A stretch of DNA of 64,000 bases, from the NCBI GenBank assembly GCA_947481575.1, contig CANKGV010000004.1:69487-133486 (forward strand). The letters run 5' to 3'. The notes beneath the pieces are model-generated. The model worked only from the letters and a program-made list of their open reading frames with translations. It was not told the DNA's origin and did no database searches. Position numbers and translations under genes: made by a program. How positions within the stretch are numbered: the stretch's first letter is position 1; each line of letters begins with the position of its first letter. The stretch is from Alphaproteobacteria bacterium. GTDB taxonomy: Bacteria > Pseudomonadota > Alphaproteobacteria > UBA2966 > CAIVPW01. Positions 3,380 to 12,330 of this stretch are shown here, in pieces.

Positions 3380-6211
3380 ATGAACGCTGAATTGCCCTTG
3401 GGAACCGCCGCGCGGGTTGTTGCGCTGGCGCGAGCCGTGGCCGAGGAACAGCACCCCCAGCGCCGCGGGCAGTTCGCCGCCGACGCGCAGAGTTCGCTGG
3501 AGCGCGATTTGGCGCTCGACAGCCTGGGGCGGGTGGAACTGCTGGGGCGGCTGGAAGGCGCGTTCGGGATCGAACTGCCGGAGCAGGTGCTGGGCAGCGC
3601 CGAGACCGTGGAGGATCTGATCGCCGCCGTGGAGCGGGCGCGGCCGCGCGGCGATGCCAAGCTCGCCAGCGTGGCGGTGCGGACGGCGGCGGTGGCGCAG
3701 GTCAGTGCGCCGCTGCAGGCGCTGACGCTCCTCCAAGTGCTGGACCACCACGCCGCGGCGACGCCGGACCGCGTGCATGTGCGGCTGCTGGGCGAGAACG
3801 ATGCTGAGACTCCGCTCACCTACGGCGAACTGCGCGCGGCGTCCAACGAGGTGGCGGCGGGCTTGCGGGCGCGTGGGTTGGAGGCGGGCGCGACGGTGGT
3901 GCTGATGCTGCCGACGTCGCTGGAGTTCTTCTATGCGTACTTCGGCGTGCTGCGGGCGGGCGGCGTGCCGGTGCCGATCTATCCGCCGGCGCGGCTGGCG
4001 CAGATCGAGGAACACCTGCGGCGCCATGCGGCGATTCTGGACAACGCCCAGACGGGGTTGCTGATCACGGTGCCGGAGGCGACGCGGGTGGCGCGGCTGA
4101 TGGGGGCCCAAGCGCGCGCCGGGCTGGACGTGGTGACGATCGCCGATCTGCGCCTGCCGCCGGCGGCCCAACCGTGGCCGGCGGTGAAGCCGAGCGATCT
4201 TGCGTTCATTCAATACACCTCGGGCAGCACCGGCGATCCGAAGGGTGTGATGCTGACCCACGCGAACCTGCTCGCGAATATCCGCGCGATGGGCAAGCCG
4301 TTTGCGCTGGACCCGGCGGTGGACGTGTTCGTGAGCTGGCTGCCGCTGTACCACGACATGGGGCTGATCGGCGCGTGGCTGGGGAGCTTGTACTTCGGCC
4401 TGCCGCTGGTGGTGATGTCGCCGCTGCGGTTTTTGGCGCATCCGGTGCGGTGGTTGCAGGCGATCCACACCTATCGCGGCACGGTCACGGCCTCGCCCAA
4501 CTTCGGCTACGAGCTGGCGCGGTCGCGCAGCACGGACGCGGAACTGGCGGGGCTCGATCTGCGTTCGCTGCGCATCGCCGCCAACGGCGCCGAGGCGGTG
4601 CTGGCGGCGACGCTGCGCGGGTTCCACGAACGTTTCGCCCCATTCGGCCTGCGGCCGGGCACAGTGCGGCCGGTGTATGGGCTCGCCGAGAGTTCGGTGG
4701 GGCTGGCGTTTCCGCCGCAAGACCGCGAGGCGCCGGTGGATCGCATCCGGCGGGCGCCGTTTCTGGCGACCGGCGCGGCGATTCCGGCCGCGGCGGACGA
4801 GGCGGACGCGGTGGAATTCGTTGCGTGCGGGCAGCCGATTCCGGGGCATGAAATCCGTGTGGTGGACGCGGCGGGACGGGAAGTGCCCGAACGCCAGGAG
4901 GGCGCGATCCAGTTCCGCGGGCCGTCATCGACCCAGGGGTATTTCCGCAATCCAACCGCGACGGCGTCACTGATGGACGGAACGTGGCTGCGCACGGGCG
5001 ACCGCGGCTACTTGTGGAACGGCGACATCGTCATCACCGGGCGCGCCAAGGACATCATCATCCGGGCGGGGCGCAATCTGTACCCGGCGGAGATCGAGGC
5101 GGCGGTGGGGGCGGTGCCGGGGATCCGGCGCGGCTGCGTGGCGGTATTCGGCGCGGCACGCACGGCCAAGGGGACCGAGAGCCTCGTGGTGATGGCGGAA
5201 ACGCGCGCGACCGATGCAGAGACGCGGGAAGCGCTGATCAGGGCCGCCACCGCGGCGGTGGTGACGGTGATCGGCGAGCCGCCGGACGATGTGCGGCTGG
5301 TGCCGGCCTACGCGGTGCTGAAGACATCGAGCGGCAAGATCCGGCGCGCGGCCAACCGCGAGCGCTACGAGCGCGGCGACGACCTGGGCGCGCGCGGCGT
5401 GTGGCTGCAGTTCGTCCGCCTTGGGGCGGCGTCGGCGCGCGCGGCAGTGGCGCGGCGGGTGCGGGCAGTGGGGGCAGTGCTGTACGCGGCGTGGTGGTGG
5501 ACGGCGCTGGCGGCGGTGGCGCTGTTTACGTGGCCGGTGGTGACGGTGGCGCTAAGCCGGCCGTTCAACCGGCGCTACGTGCGCGCGGCTGCGCGAGCGT
5601 TCCTGGCCTTGGTCGGTGCGCGTGTGACCCGGACCGGCGGCGCCGTGCCGGACGGTGGGCTGGTGCTGGCCGCCAATCACACGAGCTACATCGACGTGGT
5701 GGCGCTGATCGCGGCGTTGCCGAGCGACGTGGTGTTCGTCGCCAAGAACACGTTCGAACGGTCGGGGCTGACCGGGCCGTTCTTGCGCCATCTGGGCACG
5801 GTGTTTGTCGAGCGTTTCGACGTGCAGCGCGGGGTGTCCGATGCGGCGGCCATTCGCGATGCGGTCAAGGCCGGCGCGCGCGTGGTGTTCTTCCCGGAAG
5901 GCACGTTCACCCGCATGCCGGGGCTGCTGCCGTTCCGCAGCGGTGCGTTCGCGACGGCGGCCGAGGCGGGTGTGCCGGTGCTGCCGGTGGCGGTGCGCGG
6001 CGTGCGCACCTTCCTGCGGGCCCACAGCTGGTTTCCGCGCCACGCGCGGCTCATGGTGGCGGTGGGCGAGGCGGTGCGGCCGGAAGGCAATGCGTGGCAG
6101 GCGATGGTGCACCTGCGCGACGCGACCCGCGCGCAACTGCTGGAACTGAGCGGCGAACCCGACCTGAAGTTCGAGACGGGTGCCGTGGAACGGCTGCGCC
6201 CCAATCCCTAG
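3380..6211 (+). CDS. ACP + fatty-acyl-AMP ligase + acyltransferase fusion protein
   Basis: A 943-residue, three-part protein. Residues 1-95 are an acyl carrier domain with Ser48 in LALDSLGRVEL as the phosphopantetheine site. Residues about 115-680 are an adenylate-forming enzyme of the fatty-acyl-AMP ligase (FAAL) type, with YTSGSTGDPKG at 279 and the FAAL-like WLPLYHDMGLIGAWLGSLYFG block. One or two membrane segments follow (about 700-730). Residues about 740-930 are a PlsC-type acyltransferase with NHTSYID at 766 and FPEGT at 838. Inference: it activates a fatty acid, loads its own carrier and transfers the chain to a lipid acceptor. E. coli Aas has acyltransferase and ligase in the opposite order. 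No Shine-Dalgarno precedes the ATG, and TATCAT at 3368-3373 suggests a possibly leaderless message. Confidence 0.85.
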   Translation: MNAELPLGTAARVVALARAVAEEQHPQRRGQFAADAQSSLERDLALDSLGRVELLGRLEGAFGIELPEQVLGSAETVEDLIAAVERARPRGDAKLASVAVRTAAVAQVSAPLQALTLLQVLDHHAAATPDRVHVRLLGENDAETPLTYGELRAASNEVAAGLRARGLEAGATVVLMLPTSLEFFYAYFGVLRAGGVPVPIYPPARLAQIEEHLRRHAAILDNAQTGLLITVPEATRVARLMGAQARAGLDVVTIADLRLPPAAQPWPAVKPSDLAFIQYTSGSTGDPKGVMLTHANLLANIRAMGKPFALDPAVDVFVSWLPLYHDMGLIGAWLGSLYFGLPLVVMSPLRFLAHPVRWLQAIHTYRGTVTASPNFGYELARSRSTDAELAGLDLRSLRIAANGAEAVLAATLRGFHERFAPFGLRPGTVRPVYGLAESSVGLAFPPQDREAPVDRIRRAPFLATGAAIPAAADEADAVEFVACGQPIPGHEIRVVDAAGREVPERQEGAIQFRGPSSTQGYFRNPTATASLMDGTWLRTGDRGYLWNGDIVITGRAKDIIIRAGRNLYPAEIEAAVGAVPGIRRGCVAVFGAARTAKGTESLVVMAETRATDAETREALIRAATAAVVTVIGEPPDDVRLVPAYAVLKTSSGKIRRAANRERYERGDDLGARGVWLQFVRLGAASARAAVARRVRAVGAVLYAAWWWTALAAVALFTWPVVTVALSRPFNRRYVRAAARAFLALVGARVTRTGGAVPDGGLVLAANHTSYIDVVALIAALPSDVVFVAKNTFERSGLTGPFLRHLGTVFVERFDVQRGVSDAAAIRDAVKAGARVVFFPEGTFTRMPGLLPFRSGAFATAAEAGVPVLPVAVRGVRTFLRAHSWFPRHARLMVAVGEAVRPEGNAWQAMVHLRDATRAQLLELSGEPDLKFETGAVERLRPNP

Positions 6212-6411: not shown

Positions 6412-7688
6412 TGGAACCGCTCGATGGTTAGACCGTCCGTCGCGATGGCGGGCGGGCGGCCGCCGATCCAGTCGGCGAGCATCGCGGCGGACCCCGCCGC
6501 CAGGGTCCAACCCAGCGGGCCGTGGCCGGTGTTGAGGAACAATCCGGCACAGCCGCGCACGGGGCCTAGGATCGGCGGGCCGTCCGGAGTCATCGGCCGC
6601 AGGCCGGTCCACGGGCGGGCGTCCTCCGGCGTTGTTGCCGGCGTGGCGGCGGGCAGCAGTTCGCGGCATGCGGCGAGGATCGGCCGCACCCGGTCGAGGT
6701 CGATGGTCTCGTCGTTGCCGGCGAACTCGGCGGTGCCGGCGGCGCGCAGCCAGCCGCTGACCGGGGTCATCACCACCTTGCGGTCCTCATCGAGAATGCC
6801 GATGCGCGGCAATTGGTCGGCGTGCGGGGGCGTCACGGAAACTGAGTATCCCTTCACCGGATAGATCGGCAAGCGCACGCCGGCGGCCGCCGCGACCGGA
6901 ACGCTGCCGTTGGCCAGCGCCACCACCACGGTGCTTGCGGCAAGCGCGCCGGTGGATGTCGCCACGCCGGTAACCCGGCCGGCGCGACTTTCGATGCCGC
7001 GGGCAACGGCGCCGTAGCGGAACTCGACGCCGAGGGACGCGCAGCGTTGCTCCAACTCCAGGGTGAAGCGGTGTGCGTCGCCGCTTGCGCCGTCCGGCGT
7101 GAACACGGCGCCGGCGAGCAGGCCGGCAGCGACCGCGGGGCCGAGCGCCGGTTCGATGCGCGCGCACTCGGCGGCACTGAGCGGCTGTTCGGTGGCGTCG
7201 CCGGACGCGACCAGGGCGGCAGACTCGGCAGCGCCATGGTCGAACGAGTACGCGGAGCGGTACACCGTGAGCAAGCCGGCGGGGCGATAGTCGAACTCGA
7301 TGCCAGACTGTGCGGCGAGGGCGCGCGTGACGTCGGCGCTGTAGCGGGCGAGGCGGAGCAGGGTCCGTGTGTTGGCGTGGTAGCGCGCGGGAGTGCAGTT
7401 GCCGAGGTAGCGTAACCCCCAGCGCAGCAGGGCGGGGTCCCAGCGCAGCGGCAGGCGCAGCGGTGCGGACTTACGGCCGAGCCAGCGCGCGAGTTGTCCT
7501 GGTGCGGCGGGGGTGGCCCACGGGCGTGCGTGTCCACCGGACAAATGCCCGCCGTTGGCGAGGCTGGTTTCCAAGCCGGGCCCCAATCGGCGGTCCACAA
7601 CCGTCACACGGGCGCCGGCCCGCGCCAGATAATAAGCAGTCGTGACGCCGGAGAGCCCGGCGCCCAGAATAACGATCCGGTCGGACAA
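6408..7688 (-). CDS. DadA-like FAD-dependent D-amino acid dehydrogenase
   Basis: A 426-residue DAO-superfamily oxidoreductase. GAGLSG near residue 9 is the Rossmann FAD-binding motif. The SLANGGHLSGGHARPWATP region resembles the NGGQ(V/L)S..Y..PWA segment of DadA, and the C-terminal GPVRGCAGLFLNTGHGPLGWTLAAGSA block is the conserved FAD-contacting end. Such enzymes oxidise D-amino acids to oxo acids and ammonia, passing electrons to the respiratory chain. The start is TTG at 7688, the only possible one since a stop lies seven codons upstream. It begins 18 nt after glnK and is coupled to the lipoprotein gene. Substrate is not established. Confidence 0.82.
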   Translation of the reverse strand: MSDRIVILGAGLSGVTTAYYLARAGARVTVVDRRLGPGLETSLANGGHLSGGHARPWATPAAPGQLARWLGRKSAPLRLPLRWDPALLRWGLRYLGNCTPARYHANTRTLLRLARYSADVTRALAAQSGIEFDYRPAGLLTVYRSAYSFDHGAAESAALVASGDATEQPLSAAECARIEPALGPAVAAGLLAGAVFTPDGASGDAHRFTLELEQRCASLGVEFRYGAVARGIESRAGRVTGVATSTGALAASTVVVALANGSVPVAAAAGVRLPIYPVKGYSVSVTPPHADQLPRIGILDEDRKVVMTPVSGWLRAAGTAEFAGNDETIDLDRVRPILAACRELLPAATPATTPEDARPWTGLRPMTPDGPPILGPVRGCAGLFLNTGHGPLGWTLAAGSAAMLADWIGGRPPAIATDGLTIERFQ

Positions 7689-7706
7689 CGAAGGCGGGCC
7701 GCGGCC

Positions 7707-8048
<342 letters not shown>

Positions 8049-8147
8049 TTACCCCAGCTCAGTTAGCGGCGCGCCAGCGGGCGCCGTTGCGCCGCGTAGG
8101 CACCCTCAGTTGTAGCGGGAGCGGGCCCTAGGGGCGAGTCCGCGCTG

Positions 8148-8438
8148 CTACAGCTCGTAGGCGCGCTCGCCCTGGGCGGTGATGTCGAGGCCTTCCGCCT
8201 CGTCTTCCCGCGATACGCGCAGTCCGACGAAGGACTCGGAGGCGAGGAACGAGGTGAGCAAGACGCCGGTCATGCCGCCGACGCCGTAGACCGCAAAAAC
8301 GTCGAGCGAATTGTCGATGCGGCGGACCTTTTTCACCCACTGGGTGACGCCGTAGCAAATCACCGACGCGCAGACGCCGATGATCAGCGCACCCACTGGG
8401 CCGACGAAGCCGGATGCGGGCGTGATGGTGGCGAGTCC
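8148..8438 (-). pseudogene. amtB: Truncated second copy of amtB (3' end, internal deletion)
   Basis: This stretch repeats the 3' part of the intact amtB (9469-10761) with about five mismatches over some 285 aligned bases. It lacks 123 bp, exactly 41 codons, between LASE(S/T)F and VGLRVSREDEAEG. The similarity runs from about 8141 (just past the stop) to about 8436 and then stops abruptly. The removed 41 residues include a transmembrane helix, and everything 5' of the TITPASGFVGPVG region is missing. It cannot form a transporter. The high identity implies a recent duplication. Confidence 0.88.
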
Positions 8439-8547
8439 AGTGTGGGGGAAGAAGCGACGCTGAGGTCTACGTTCGAATCGACCTGATCCAACTCGTACGT
8501 GCGTCCGTAAAGAACATTGGAAAGCAGCACGTGCTGGGAAATCTAAA

Positions 8548-9228
8548 ATGAAACGTAACCTTCTTCCGGAGCCCACTTTGGGCGCAAGAGCTGCGGTTGT
8601 GGCTGCTCTTCTTCTCCTAACACCGGTTACCGCAATGGCCATCGAAGAACCGAAGTTCAAAGTTCTTGAGACGAGCGGCAACTTTCAGATCCGCGAATAT
8701 CAACCGGCGCTAATAGCCGAAGTAGAAACCACTGGGGAGCGCAGCGACGCGGCTTCCAGCGGGTTTCGATTGCTCGCGGATTTCATCTTCGGCAATAACC
8801 GTGTCCAGCGGAAGATTGCCATGACTGCGCCAGTCACACAGATGCCGGAGCCAGCGAACACAAGAGTCGCGATGACAGCGCCAGTGATGCAAGCGCCCGC
8901 GGGCTCGGAATGGAATGACCAAACCGCAACGGAGCAGCGATGGCGTGTAGCCTTTATGATGCCCAGTCAGTTCAGCATGGAAACGCTTCCACTACCGAAC
9001 GACCCGCGAATCAAGATCAAAGAAATTCCGGGAAGGAAGATAGTGAGTGTGACGTTCAGCGGATTTTACACCCAGACTAACTTGCGCAAGCATCGGGAAC
9101 TATTGGAGCGGTTTGTCAAAGAGAGAGGTCTGGAAACGTCTGGTCCGTATGAGGTTGCTTTCTATGATGATCCCTTCACTCTCCCATGGAATAGACGCAA
9201 CGAATGGTGGGTAACGGTTACGCCTTGA
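8548..9228 (+). CDS. Periplasmic SOUL-family haem-binding protein
   Basis: A 226-residue protein with an N-terminal signal peptide ending near AMA-IEEP. The SOUL-family core follows: FKVLETSGNFQIREY, two copies of the (I/V)AMTAPV signature, a central FMMPSQFSMETLPLP block and a C-terminal NEWWVTV. SOUL/HBP proteins bind haem or tetrapyrroles; bacterial roles are poorly known. G+C is visibly lower than its neighbours (27 of 60 bases in 8641-8700), and it is opposite in strand to the amtB/glnK genes it separates. Both facts suggest transfer. Confidence 0.85.
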   Translation: MKRNLLPEPTLGARAAVVAALLLLTPVTAMAIEEPKFKVLETSGNFQIREYQPALIAEVETTGERSDAASSGFRLLADFIFGNNRVQRKIAMTAPVTQMPEPANTRVAMTAPVMQAPAGSEWNDQTATEQRWRVAFMMPSQFSMETLPLPNDPRIKIKEIPGRKIVSVTFSGFYTQTNLRKHRELLERFVKERGLETSGPYEVAFYDDPFTLPWNRRNEWWVTVTP

Positions 9229-9468
9229 AGTACAGGCCCGGTTCCGGGCGGTCGCCCGTGGGCGGCGGCCCTCAAGTCTGGAAGGTTTGACCTGAGCCCC
9301 TAAAGTTTCAGGGAGACGAGCAGGTCCTTGCCGGGCAGCACCTTGAAACGGGTCTCGCGTGACCTTGGCCAGAGTCATGGTTGCCGTCAGCAGCAAGTTA
9401 AGGCGGTTGCGCGTCCGCCTAACCAAGACGTAATCGAATTCGGTAAAGGTTGATTCGGGTGCGCGCTA
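9229..9468. other. 240-bp segment between the SOUL gene and amtB, no supportable gene
   Basis: No convincing complete gene is visible. The minus strand can encode a short broken stretch (MTLAKVTR, then in another frame ETRFKVLPGKDLLVSLKL and a stop near 9300) that may be the decayed end of a protein gene. I could not assign it. The segment lies beside the duplication scar. Confidence 0.4.
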
Positions 9469-10761
9469 CTACAGCTCGTAGGCGCGTTCGCCGTGGGCGG
9501 TGATGTCGAGGCCTTCCGCCTCGTCTTCCCGCGATACGCGCAGTCCGACGGTGGCTTGGGTGATCTTGATCAGAACGAAGCTGGCGACTCCCGACCACAG
9601 CGCCACCGCAACGACGCCGATGAGTTGCACGCCGAAGTGCTCGCCCATCGACATGGTGAGGCCTAGGCCCTGAAAGGTTTCGGAGGCGAGGAACGAGGTG
9701 AGCAAGACGCCGGTCATGCCGCCGACGCCGTGGACCGCAAAAACGTCGAGCGAATCGTCGATGCGGCGGACCTTTTTCACCCACTGGGTGACGCCGTAGC
9801 AAATCACCGACGCGCAGACGCCGATGATCAGCGCACCCACCGGGCCGACGAAGCCGGATGCGGGCGTGATGGTGGCGAGGCCGGCGACGGCGCCGGTAAC
9901 GGTGCCCACCATGCTGGGTTTGCCCAAGCGCCACCATTCGATGAACATCCATACCGTGGCGGCGGTCGCGGCGGAGATGTGGGTGACGGCCATCGCCATG
10001 CCCGCGCCGGCACCGGCGCCGAGGCTGCTGCCGGCGTTGAACCCGAACCAGCCGACCCACAGCATGGCCGCGCCGATCATGGTCAGGCTGGGGTTGTGCG
10101 GCGGCTTCATTTCTTGCGGGAAACCCTTGCGGGCGCCGAGCATGACGGCCAGCAACAGGGCCGAAATCCCGGCCGTGGTGTGCACAACCAAACCACCGGC
10201 GAAATCGCGCACGCCCATCTCGAACAGCCAGCCGCCTTCGGCCCACACCCAGTGCGCGACCGGCGCGTAGACGACCAGCACCCACAGCAAGCTGAACAGA
10301 AGCACGGCGGCGAAGCGGATGCGCTCGACGTAGGCGCCGACGATCAGGGCAGGAGTGATGATGGCGAACGTCATCTGGTACATCATGAAGACGGTTTCCG
10401 GCATCGTGCCCCACTCGGCATCGGCGCCGACGCCGCGCAGGAAGGCTTTGGCCAAACCGCCGACGTACGGATTGCCAACGCCGAACGCGAGGGCGTAGCC
10501 GACCAACACCCAGGCGACCGACACGACGCAGGCGATCGCGAATACCTGCTGCAGAACGGAAACCATGTTCCGCGCCCGCACTAGGCCCGCGTAGAACAGC
10601 GCCAAGCCGGGCAAGGTCATGAACAGGACAAGGGCCGTGGAGGTGAGCATCCAGGCGGTGTCGCCGGTGTCCACCGCAGCCATGGCGGCGCCCGGCGCTA
10701 GTCCGACGGTCAAGGCGATACTGATCGCGGTGGCCAATACCCCACTACGGCGCATGCTCAT
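9469..10761 (-). CDS. amtB: Ammonium transporter AmtB
   Basis: A 430-residue inner-membrane channel for ammonium. It begins with a cleavable signal peptide (to about GAAMA-AVDTGD), then eleven predicted hydrophobic segments. Landmarks are the PGLALFYAGLVR region and the conserved DFAGG(L)VVHTTAG segment with the first pore histidine. The C-terminal GLRVSREDEAEGLDITAHGERAYEL tail is the PII-interacting end. ATG at 10761 follows GGAGA at 8-nt spacing. A near-identical 3' fragment lies at 8148-8438. It is probably nitrogen-regulated with glnK, though no clear sigma-54 site was found just upstream. Confidence 0.96.
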   Translation of the reverse strand: MSMRRSGVLATAISIALTVGLAPGAAMAAVDTGDTAWMLTSTALVLFMTLPGLALFYAGLVRARNMVSVLQQVFAIACVVSVAWVLVGYALAFGVGNPYVGGLAKAFLRGVGADAEWGTMPETVFMMYQMTFAIITPALIVGAYVERIRFAAVLLFSLLWVLVVYAPVAHWVWAEGGWLFEMGVRDFAGGLVVHTTAGISALLLAVMLGARKGFPQEMKPPHNPSLTMIGAAMLWVGWFGFNAGSSLGAGAGAGMAMAVTHISAATAATVWMFIEWWRLGKPSMVGTVTGAVAGLATITPASGFVGPVGALIIGVCASVICYGVTQWVKKVRRIDDSLDVFAVHGVGGMTGVLLTSFLASETFQGLGLTMSMGEHFGVQLIGVVAVALWSGVASFVLIKITQATVGLRVSREDEAEGLDITAHGERAYEL

Positions 10762-10859
10762 GAAACTGCTCTCCCCCTAGTCAGTCCAAACGCACAAATC
10801 CGCCCAATTTCTAGGCAATGGGCACGGAATACGCAACGGCGCGCGCCTGTTCCTGGTGC

Positions 10860-10881
10860 GGGGCCAAAGGCCCCTCGTTTT
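10860..10881 (+). terminator. Terminator-like hairpin upstream of ycjX
   Basis: GGGGCC (10860-10865), loop AAA, GGCCCC (10869-10874), then TCGTTTT. It has the form of a short rho-independent terminator, but no plus-strand gene closely precedes it. It supports a ycjX start downstream of this point rather than at the GTG at 10882. Confidence 0.4.
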
Positions 10882-10944
10882 GTGCGGTTGGAATGCCCAC
10901 ATGACGGTTGCGAGCGGGCCACGGCGGTGCCGCGGAATGGTGGC

Positions 10945-12330
10945 ATGGTCCTAGACACGGCACGGGCGCTCGCGCGCAGGGTTGGAGAACGCAATGTCGT
11001 CCGCTTGGCGGTCACCGGTTTACGCCGCTGCGGCAAGACCGTGTTCACCACAGCCTTCATCGACGATCTGCTGTGCGCGGGGCAGTGGCCGGAGCTGCTG
11101 CCGTTCCTCGATGTGGCAGCGCGCGGCGACCTGATCGCGGCCGAAACATTTGCGCCGGAAGGCGATATCCCGGCGTTCCCCTATGTTGAGTCGATTGGTG
11201 CGATCCGGGGTGATCCTGCGGGCTGGCCGAAGGCGACGGAACGCCTGCATGGCCTGCGCGTCAGCATTCGTTATCGCACGCGGAACCGGGTAGCGCGCTT
11301 GCTTGGGTCTGCGACCCGCGTTCTGACGGTCGAACTGGTCGACTACCCCGGCGAGTGGCTGCTGGATTTGCCGCTGCTGGCGAAGTCCTACACCGATTGG
11401 TCGCGCGAGACGCTGGGCATGACCCGGGCGATGCCGCGGGCGGTCCGCTTCGAGCGTTGGCTGACGTTCCTGGCCGGAATCGATCCCGGCGCGCCGGCCG
11501 TTACGGCGACCTTGGACGAGGCAGCCAGGCTATACGCCTCGGCGCTGCGGGACTGCGCCACGTCGGATACCGGGCTGTTCCTGCATCAGCCCGCCCGGAT
11601 CGTCAGCCCGGGGACGTTCGCGCCGGACGATCCGTTGCTGGCCGTGTGCCCATTGCCGCCAGCGCCCAGCGCGGCACCGGGATCGTTCCATGCGGTGATG
11701 GCCGAGCGGTATGCGGCGTACTGCGAACAGGTCGTGGCGCCGTTCTACCGCGATCATTTCCGCCGGTTCGACGCCCAGATCGTGCTGGTGGACGTATTGG
11801 GCGCGCTGCGTCACGGCCAGGCGTCGTTCGACGACATGCGCGCGGCAATCGGCGCGGTGCTGCAGAGCTTCGACTATGGCCGCACGGGACTGCGGGCGTG
11901 GCTGGAGGGTGCCCGCACCGAACGGGTGCTGTTCGCCGCGACCAAGGCCGATCACGTATCGAGCAACCAACACCCCAATCTGCGCCGGTTGCTCGAGGAG
12001 GTGGTGGTGCGCGAAGGCAATCGCATCCGTTTCCGCGGCGTGGCCACCAAGGCGATCGCGTTGTCGTCGGTGCGCTGCACCGAGGACGTGCTCGGCGAGG
12101 TCCAGGGCCAGACCCTGAGCATGGTGCGGGGCCTGCCGGTCGGGCGCACGACTCAGACGGCGCTGTTTCCCGGGGAAATCCCGGCGCACTTTCCGGGCCC
12201 GCAGGATTGGCGCGACGGCCGGTTCCGCTTCCTGGACTTCCTGCCCGCGCCGGTCACCGGCAACCGCGGGCTGCCACACATCGGCATCGATGAGGCGATG
12301 GACTACCTGATCGGGCCCAGGCTGGGATGA
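10945..12330 (+). CDS. ycjX: YcjX-family P-loop protein
   Basis: A 461-residue member of the YcjX (DUF463) family, GTPase-like proteins of uncertain function linked in enterobacteria to stress and phage-shock regulons. The N terminus VVRLAVTGLRRCGKTVFTTAFIDDLL holds a Walker A motif, and VELVDYPGEWLLDLPLL matches the E. coli protein closely. An (F/A)ATKADHV segment resembles the guanine-specificity motif. The ATG at 10945 gives a length near E. coli YcjX (465); a GTG at 10882 is also in frame. The stop overlaps the ycjF start as ATGA. Confidence 0.9.
   Translation: MVLDTARALARRVGERNVVRLAVTGLRRCGKTVFTTAFIDDLLCAGQWPELLPFLDVAARGDLIAAETFAPEGDIPAFPYVESIGAIRGDPAGWPKATERLHGLRVSIRYRTRNRVARLLGSATRVLTVELVDYPGEWLLDLPLLAKSYTDWSRETLGMTRAMPRAVRFERWLTFLAGIDPGAPAVTATLDEAARLYASALRDCATSDTGLFLHQPARIVSPGTFAPDDPLLAVCPLPPAPSAAPGSFHAVMAERYAAYCEQVVAPFYRDHFRRFDAQIVLVDVLGALRHGQASFDDMRAAIGAVLQSFDYGRTGLRAWLEGARTERVLFAATKADHVSSNQHPNLRRLLEEVVVREGNRIRFRGVATKAIALSSVRCTEDVLGEVQGQTLSMVRGLPVGRTTQTALFPGEIPAHFPGPQDWRDGRFRFLDFLPAPVTGNRGLPHIGIDEAMDYLIGPRLG

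Follow-up and report, generated by a model that had tools for sequence, protein, structure and literature searches.

Insertion of a foreign SOUL haem-binding protein gene, probably coupled with duplication of the amtB 3' end, between amtB and glnK of an alphaproteobacterium

Background

The genes for the P-II protein GlnK and the ammonium transporter AmtB form a conserved pair, for which the textbook order is glnK-amtB. At the locus described here both genes are present and, as far as their sequences tell, intact, and they are adjacent at this locus in all relatives examined. The differences are their order, amtB-glnK, and a gap of 1423 bp that was found only in the genome of the window (the whole 64,000-nucleotide stretch of DNA that was analysed).

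For single-crossover insertion-duplication and homology-facilitated illegitimate recombination (HFIR), a layout has been described in which foreign DNA has an intact gene on one side and a truncated copy of that gene's end on the other (PMC3240628). In that work, an E. coli lacZ experiment, the product seen most often was a partial duplication of the gene end, 109-950 bp long, next to the inserted plasmid. The present locus shares this layout, but it represents a natural and partly decayed scar. Short-homology tandem duplication by illegitimate recombination, for which the use of 9-bp borders has been reported (PMC11111574), is likewise comparable through a 9-bp GC-rich match at the duplication edges. 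It differs in that foreign DNA lies here at the junction and one copy is both truncated and internally deleted. The inserted gene belongs to the SOUL/HEBP family (PF04832), with a full-length domain match and a sequence relationship to the solved HEBP1 and HEBP2; it is, however, bacterial, carries a signal-peptide-like N-terminus and adjoins mobile DNA in two relatives. Insertion of foreign SOUL DNA coupled with duplication of the amtB 3' end is regarded as the probable origin of this arrangement (probability about 0.7).

Organization of the amtB-glnK locus

The host genome (G000), that of a freshwater bacterium, comprises 2.45 Mb in 47 contigs, and the locus is located on a contig of 151 kb (C4). 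On the minus strand, amtB (10761-9469) is followed by a 1.3-kb stretch, by glnK (8045-7707) and by a gene for a DAO-type oxidoreductase, while a YcjX gene lies upstream of amtB on the opposite strand. The following features were delimited (window coordinates):

7707..8045, minus strand: glnK, P-II protein, 112 aa (Pfam PF00543)
8133..8141, minus strand: site Q, GGACTCGCC, just past the fragment stop codon, the same 9 bp as J (sequence reading)
8148..8438, minus strand: truncated amtB 3' copy, without the 5' two thirds and without net 41 codons, decaying (repeat search and base alignment)
8220..8235, minus strand: deletion junction in the fragment, with short filler (direct sequence reading)
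8430..8438, minus strand: site J, the fragment 5' edge, GGACTCGCC (sequence reading)
8439..9455, no strand: foreign insert, 1017 bp, GC 0.55 versus 0.66 for the window, absent here in relatives; its outer boundary, near 9455-9468, is approximate
8471..9226, plus strand: core matching contig C210 of genome G007 at 94% DNA identity, at another locus in G007
8548..9228, plus strand: SOUL haem-binding protein gene, 226 aa (Pfam PF04832, E 3.8e-46)
9428..9466, no strand: copy of a low-copy dispersed repeat, also in G003, G004 and G005; it abuts the stop of intact amtB
9469..10761, minus strand: intact amtB, ammonium transporter, 430 aa (PF00909 profile, TIGR00836, position orthologous in relatives)
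9874..9882, minus strand: site P, GGCCTCGCC, the intact-amtB counterpart of J (sequence reading)

The intact amtB matched PF00909 along the whole profile (1-399 of 399) and reached 428.6 bits with TIGR00836, the cut-off being 343.3. No known RNA element was detected in 7500-11000 (Rfam). Elsewhere in the window, a single frame of 943 aa (3380-6211) combines a carrier-protein domain, an AMP-binding ligase and an acyltransferase (PF01553).

The comparison covered seven members of the family and several of the order, all of them genomes from outside the genus of the window. The amtB stop and the glnK start were separated by 38-78 bp in nine relatives (G001, G002, G003, G004, G005, G006, G007, G011 and G014), and none of the nine had a SOUL gene or a second amtB end at the amtB-glnK locus. 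The 1.3-kb insertion-duplication is therefore evidently derived in the lineage of the window. A comparison with close relatives thus upheld the proposal of the first-pass annotation that a partial amtB duplication had split glnK from amtB. As a point of wording, amtB lies upstream of glnK (minus strand) at this locus in the family of the window, the reverse of the textbook arrangement. The order of the neighbouring genes (AMP-ligase/acyltransferase, DAO, GlnK, AmtB, YcjX, DUF697, Nnr) was kept in relatives where contigs allow.

In G003, a 777-aa tail-spike-like gene (Peptidase_S74; L042:8037-10370) is found between glnK and the DAO gene; the same neighbourhood therefore appears to have taken a second, different insertion. 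G005 carries an extra glnK-like gene (L041:1691-2026; 62% identical) about 5 kb from its amtB-glnK pair.

The truncated amtB copy

A repeat search paired 8230-8438 with 9674-9882 (97%) and 8135-8229 with 9456-9550 (95%). With 97% identity over 209 bp and a collinear 95% over 95 bp, chance is ruled far out. The spacings of the two blocks (1444 and 1321) give a net 123 bp (41 codons) absent from the fragment, which has 291 nt versus 414 nt for the matching part of intact amtB; apart from this loss the copies align gap-free. Base by base, 11 mismatches were counted over 304 aligned bp. Three of them lie within 13 bp past the stop codon and eight are coding. Of the coding ones, two (8234 and 8235) lie at the deletion junction and one (8436) at the 5' edge, leaving about five ordinary substitutions. 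This agrees with the five or so mismatches reported at first pass for a second amtB 3' end, and the abrupt 5' edge was likewise recovered, at 8438/9882. The 41-codon in-frame deletion, which had been called exact, is so in net length; its junction is not perfectly clean, with filler of some 7 bp (GTCCTTC, read on the minus strand). An inverted repeat, AGTCC-GACGAA-GGACT on the plus strand, occupies 8220-8235, which would fit snap-back copying of the filler.

Three columns with no or almost no variation among nine relatives are altered in the fragment: D to N (fragment codon 42), H to Y (in FAVHGVGG) and H to Q (in the C-terminal HGE). The intact amtB keeps the common base at all three. The last transmembrane segment, as read from the sequence, is absent from the fragment, and with only 261-329 of the profile matched, an H to Y change in FAVHGVGG and 41 codons missing it does not qualify as a complete AmtB. 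Because the changes at conserved sites fall in the fragment and not in the intact gene, the fragment looks like a decaying remnant under relaxed selection. One could instead imagine a short AmtB C-terminal peptide or a glnK promoter, given that the frame is still open (177 aa, counted from a TTG that lies within SOUL) and that glnK may now need transcription from elsewhere than amtB. Such a role is scarcely credible: the fragment has lost one transmembrane segment together with H and D residues that are otherwise conserved, the only listed start is antisense within SOUL, and no sigma-70-type promoter match was found in 7700-11000, although the latter is weak evidence and covers that promoter type only.

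The divergence of about 2% between the copies at ordinary sites suggests a moderately recent event, but gene conversion could mask part of their true age, and the term 'recent' used at first pass should be taken as relative only. The same comparison bears on a false join of SOUL and fragment during metagenome assembly, a concern for a genome in 47 contigs that may be a metagenome bin. Such a chimera is very improbable, as the copies are non-identical (about 2% plus the 123-bp gap), synteny with relatives extends to either side of the locus, contig C4 is long and SOUL is single in the genome.

Origin of the SOUL gene

The gene situated between both amtB 3' copies matched PF04832 with 157.7 bits (cut-off 27) over profile positions 1-172 of 173, and its only occurrence in the host genome is at this site. 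Its product starts with a signal-peptide-like stretch (AAVVAALLLLTPVTAMA/IEEPKF). From the family and this N-terminus, an exported haem-binding protein would be expected, the gene using its own upstream region.

Several lines of evidence relate to its origin. The GC content of the gene was 0.54, and its GC3 was 0.58 versus 0.82-0.87 in neighbouring genes. A codon comparison between the window and G007 gave 94.0% nucleotide identity, with a dN of 0.042 and a dS of 0.138, whereas amtB and glnK of the same genome pair had dS values of 0.74 and 0.80, respectively; G007 is from a different genus, and identity between its amtB and that of the window is only 74%. The dN/dS ratio of about 0.3 is consistent with purifying selection. 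In a tree of 81 SOUL proteins, those of the window, G007 and G006 grouped together (100/99) within a 16-row set that was otherwise betaproteobacterial. SOUL of the window was nearer to that of G007 than SOUL of G006 was, though G006 and G007 share a genus. By the low dS, the GC3 and the gene tree, the SOUL gene is judged to be horizontally acquired, in line with its initial description as a foreign-looking, low-GC gene in divergent orientation. The dS of 0.14 shows that the gene did not come directly from G007 itself. SOUL genes appear to move between beta- and alphaproteobacteria, the records being mostly from lakes and other freshwater.

Mechanism of insertion and duplication

Under the preferred reading, about 1 kb of foreign DNA with SOUL would have been inserted between amtB and glnK, the same rearrangement duplicating the last 0.3 kb or so of amtB. 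The upstream amtB copy would have kept a complete reading frame, and the glnK-side copy would have lost its 5' part and 41 codons and be drifting. Insertion and duplication would then form one coupled event, in which either a molecule with a 3' piece of amtB recombined by a single crossover or short homologies allowed a template switch. The succession of intact gene, foreign DNA and truncated 3' copy is what single-crossover or homology-aided illegitimate insertion produces. The order of events, the vector and the coupling into a single event are what we infer from this layout, as is any choice between a segment that 'arrived with' the duplication and one that 'triggered' it, the two options of the first-pass annotation. 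Searches of genomes, plasmids, phages and viral contigs with the SOUL protein as query revealed no molecule joining amtB 3' DNA to SOUL.

Sites J and Q are identical over 9 bp, and P and Q match at 8 of 9. Matches of 8/9 or better occurred in 0.24% of trials with random pairs from the window (chance about 0.002). The match at the fragment edges points to a short-homology junction, and it fits either an earlier short-homology duplication or a template switch. The J/Q identity counts against the one-event reading, because it is the outcome to be expected from a plain tandem duplication that preceded the insertion. In that case two steps would be involved: first the P/Q homology would have given rise to a tandem duplicate of the amtB 3' end, and the SOUL segment would later have entered the junction. 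Accordingly, the fragment 5' edge (GGACTCGCC) is identical to the 9 bp past its stop codon and differs from the intact-amtB site by one base, as predicted for a P/Q hybrid. Such a hybrid depends, however, on that single informative base, and a second, independent insertion would have had to fall only a few bases from the duplication junction. Without an insert, a 0.3-kb tandem repeat is, moreover, usually unstable. The two-step course is thus considered unlikely, and the single coupled event is preferred because the ends of the insert fall at the duplication junction.

The insertion of this haem-protein gene is a clear but ordinary gene-transfer scar, a natural example of a known process. It offers a readable case of a conserved gene pair that survived the entry of foreign DNA, with a complete target gene and a leftover remnant. 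Two comparisons at one locus, fragment with intact copy and SOUL with its G007 counterpart, provide two rough clocks.

Possible effect on glnK and a second glnK-amtB pair

As glnK is the downstream gene, the insertion would have placed it out of short read-through from amtB. Loss of coupling here may cost little, since the host genome has a second glnK-amtB pair, in textbook order, on contig C19 (L178:2388-4037; GlnK 71% and AmtB 53% identical to those of the window), which may buffer any effect. A wider proposal holds that SOUL is a recurrent mobile cargo of freshwater proteobacteria and that its insertion parted glnK from amtB transcription, changing the link between ammonium uptake and nitrogen sensing; taken together, this is quite doubtful. 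In several family members, amtB matches of 68-70% DNA identity on separate contigs suggest a second pair there too.

SOUL genes and surrounding mobile DNA

SOUL was found at three different sites in three genomes of the family of the window. In G006 it is close to a phage-type integrase adjoining tRNA-Ser; in G007 matches to the two ends of an IS3-type element enclose it, and a recombinase Zn-ribbon remnant as well as tRNA-Met are nearby. Beside SOUL in the window, neither an integrase nor an IS end was recognised. Open frames tried in the 240 bp at 9229-9468 gave no Pfam match to a transposase remnant, and the predicted fold of 9395-9468 was no stronger than that of shuffles. The insert ends (AGTGTGG... 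and AATCAACC...) are not inverted repeats and show only a weak GCACCCG/GGACTCG similarity. Close SOUL relatives were absent from phages and viral contigs, and plasmids yielded distant ones only (<60%).

Attention was also paid to integron cassettes. The attC-like palindromic repeats by SOUL in G006 and G007 turned out to belong to the IS3-type element, for which HTH_Tnp_1 and rve domains were present in G005 (C80), and this candidate was rejected. The ends of the element (L165:5346-6523; repeats L037:2173-2262, L037:3973-4056 and L038:5512-5581) are numerous in G003, G005 and G006, frequently located at the end of a contig. SOUL of G007 is flanked by them, and that of G006 is followed by one palindromic copy.

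The low-copy repeat at window 9428-9466 (consensus TTCGGTAAAGGTTGANNCGGGTCCCCGC) is dispersed in the family, with copies in G003 (C42 and C46), G004 (C6) and G005 (C93). The copy on C46 of G003 seems to interrupt a sulfate-permease-like frame.
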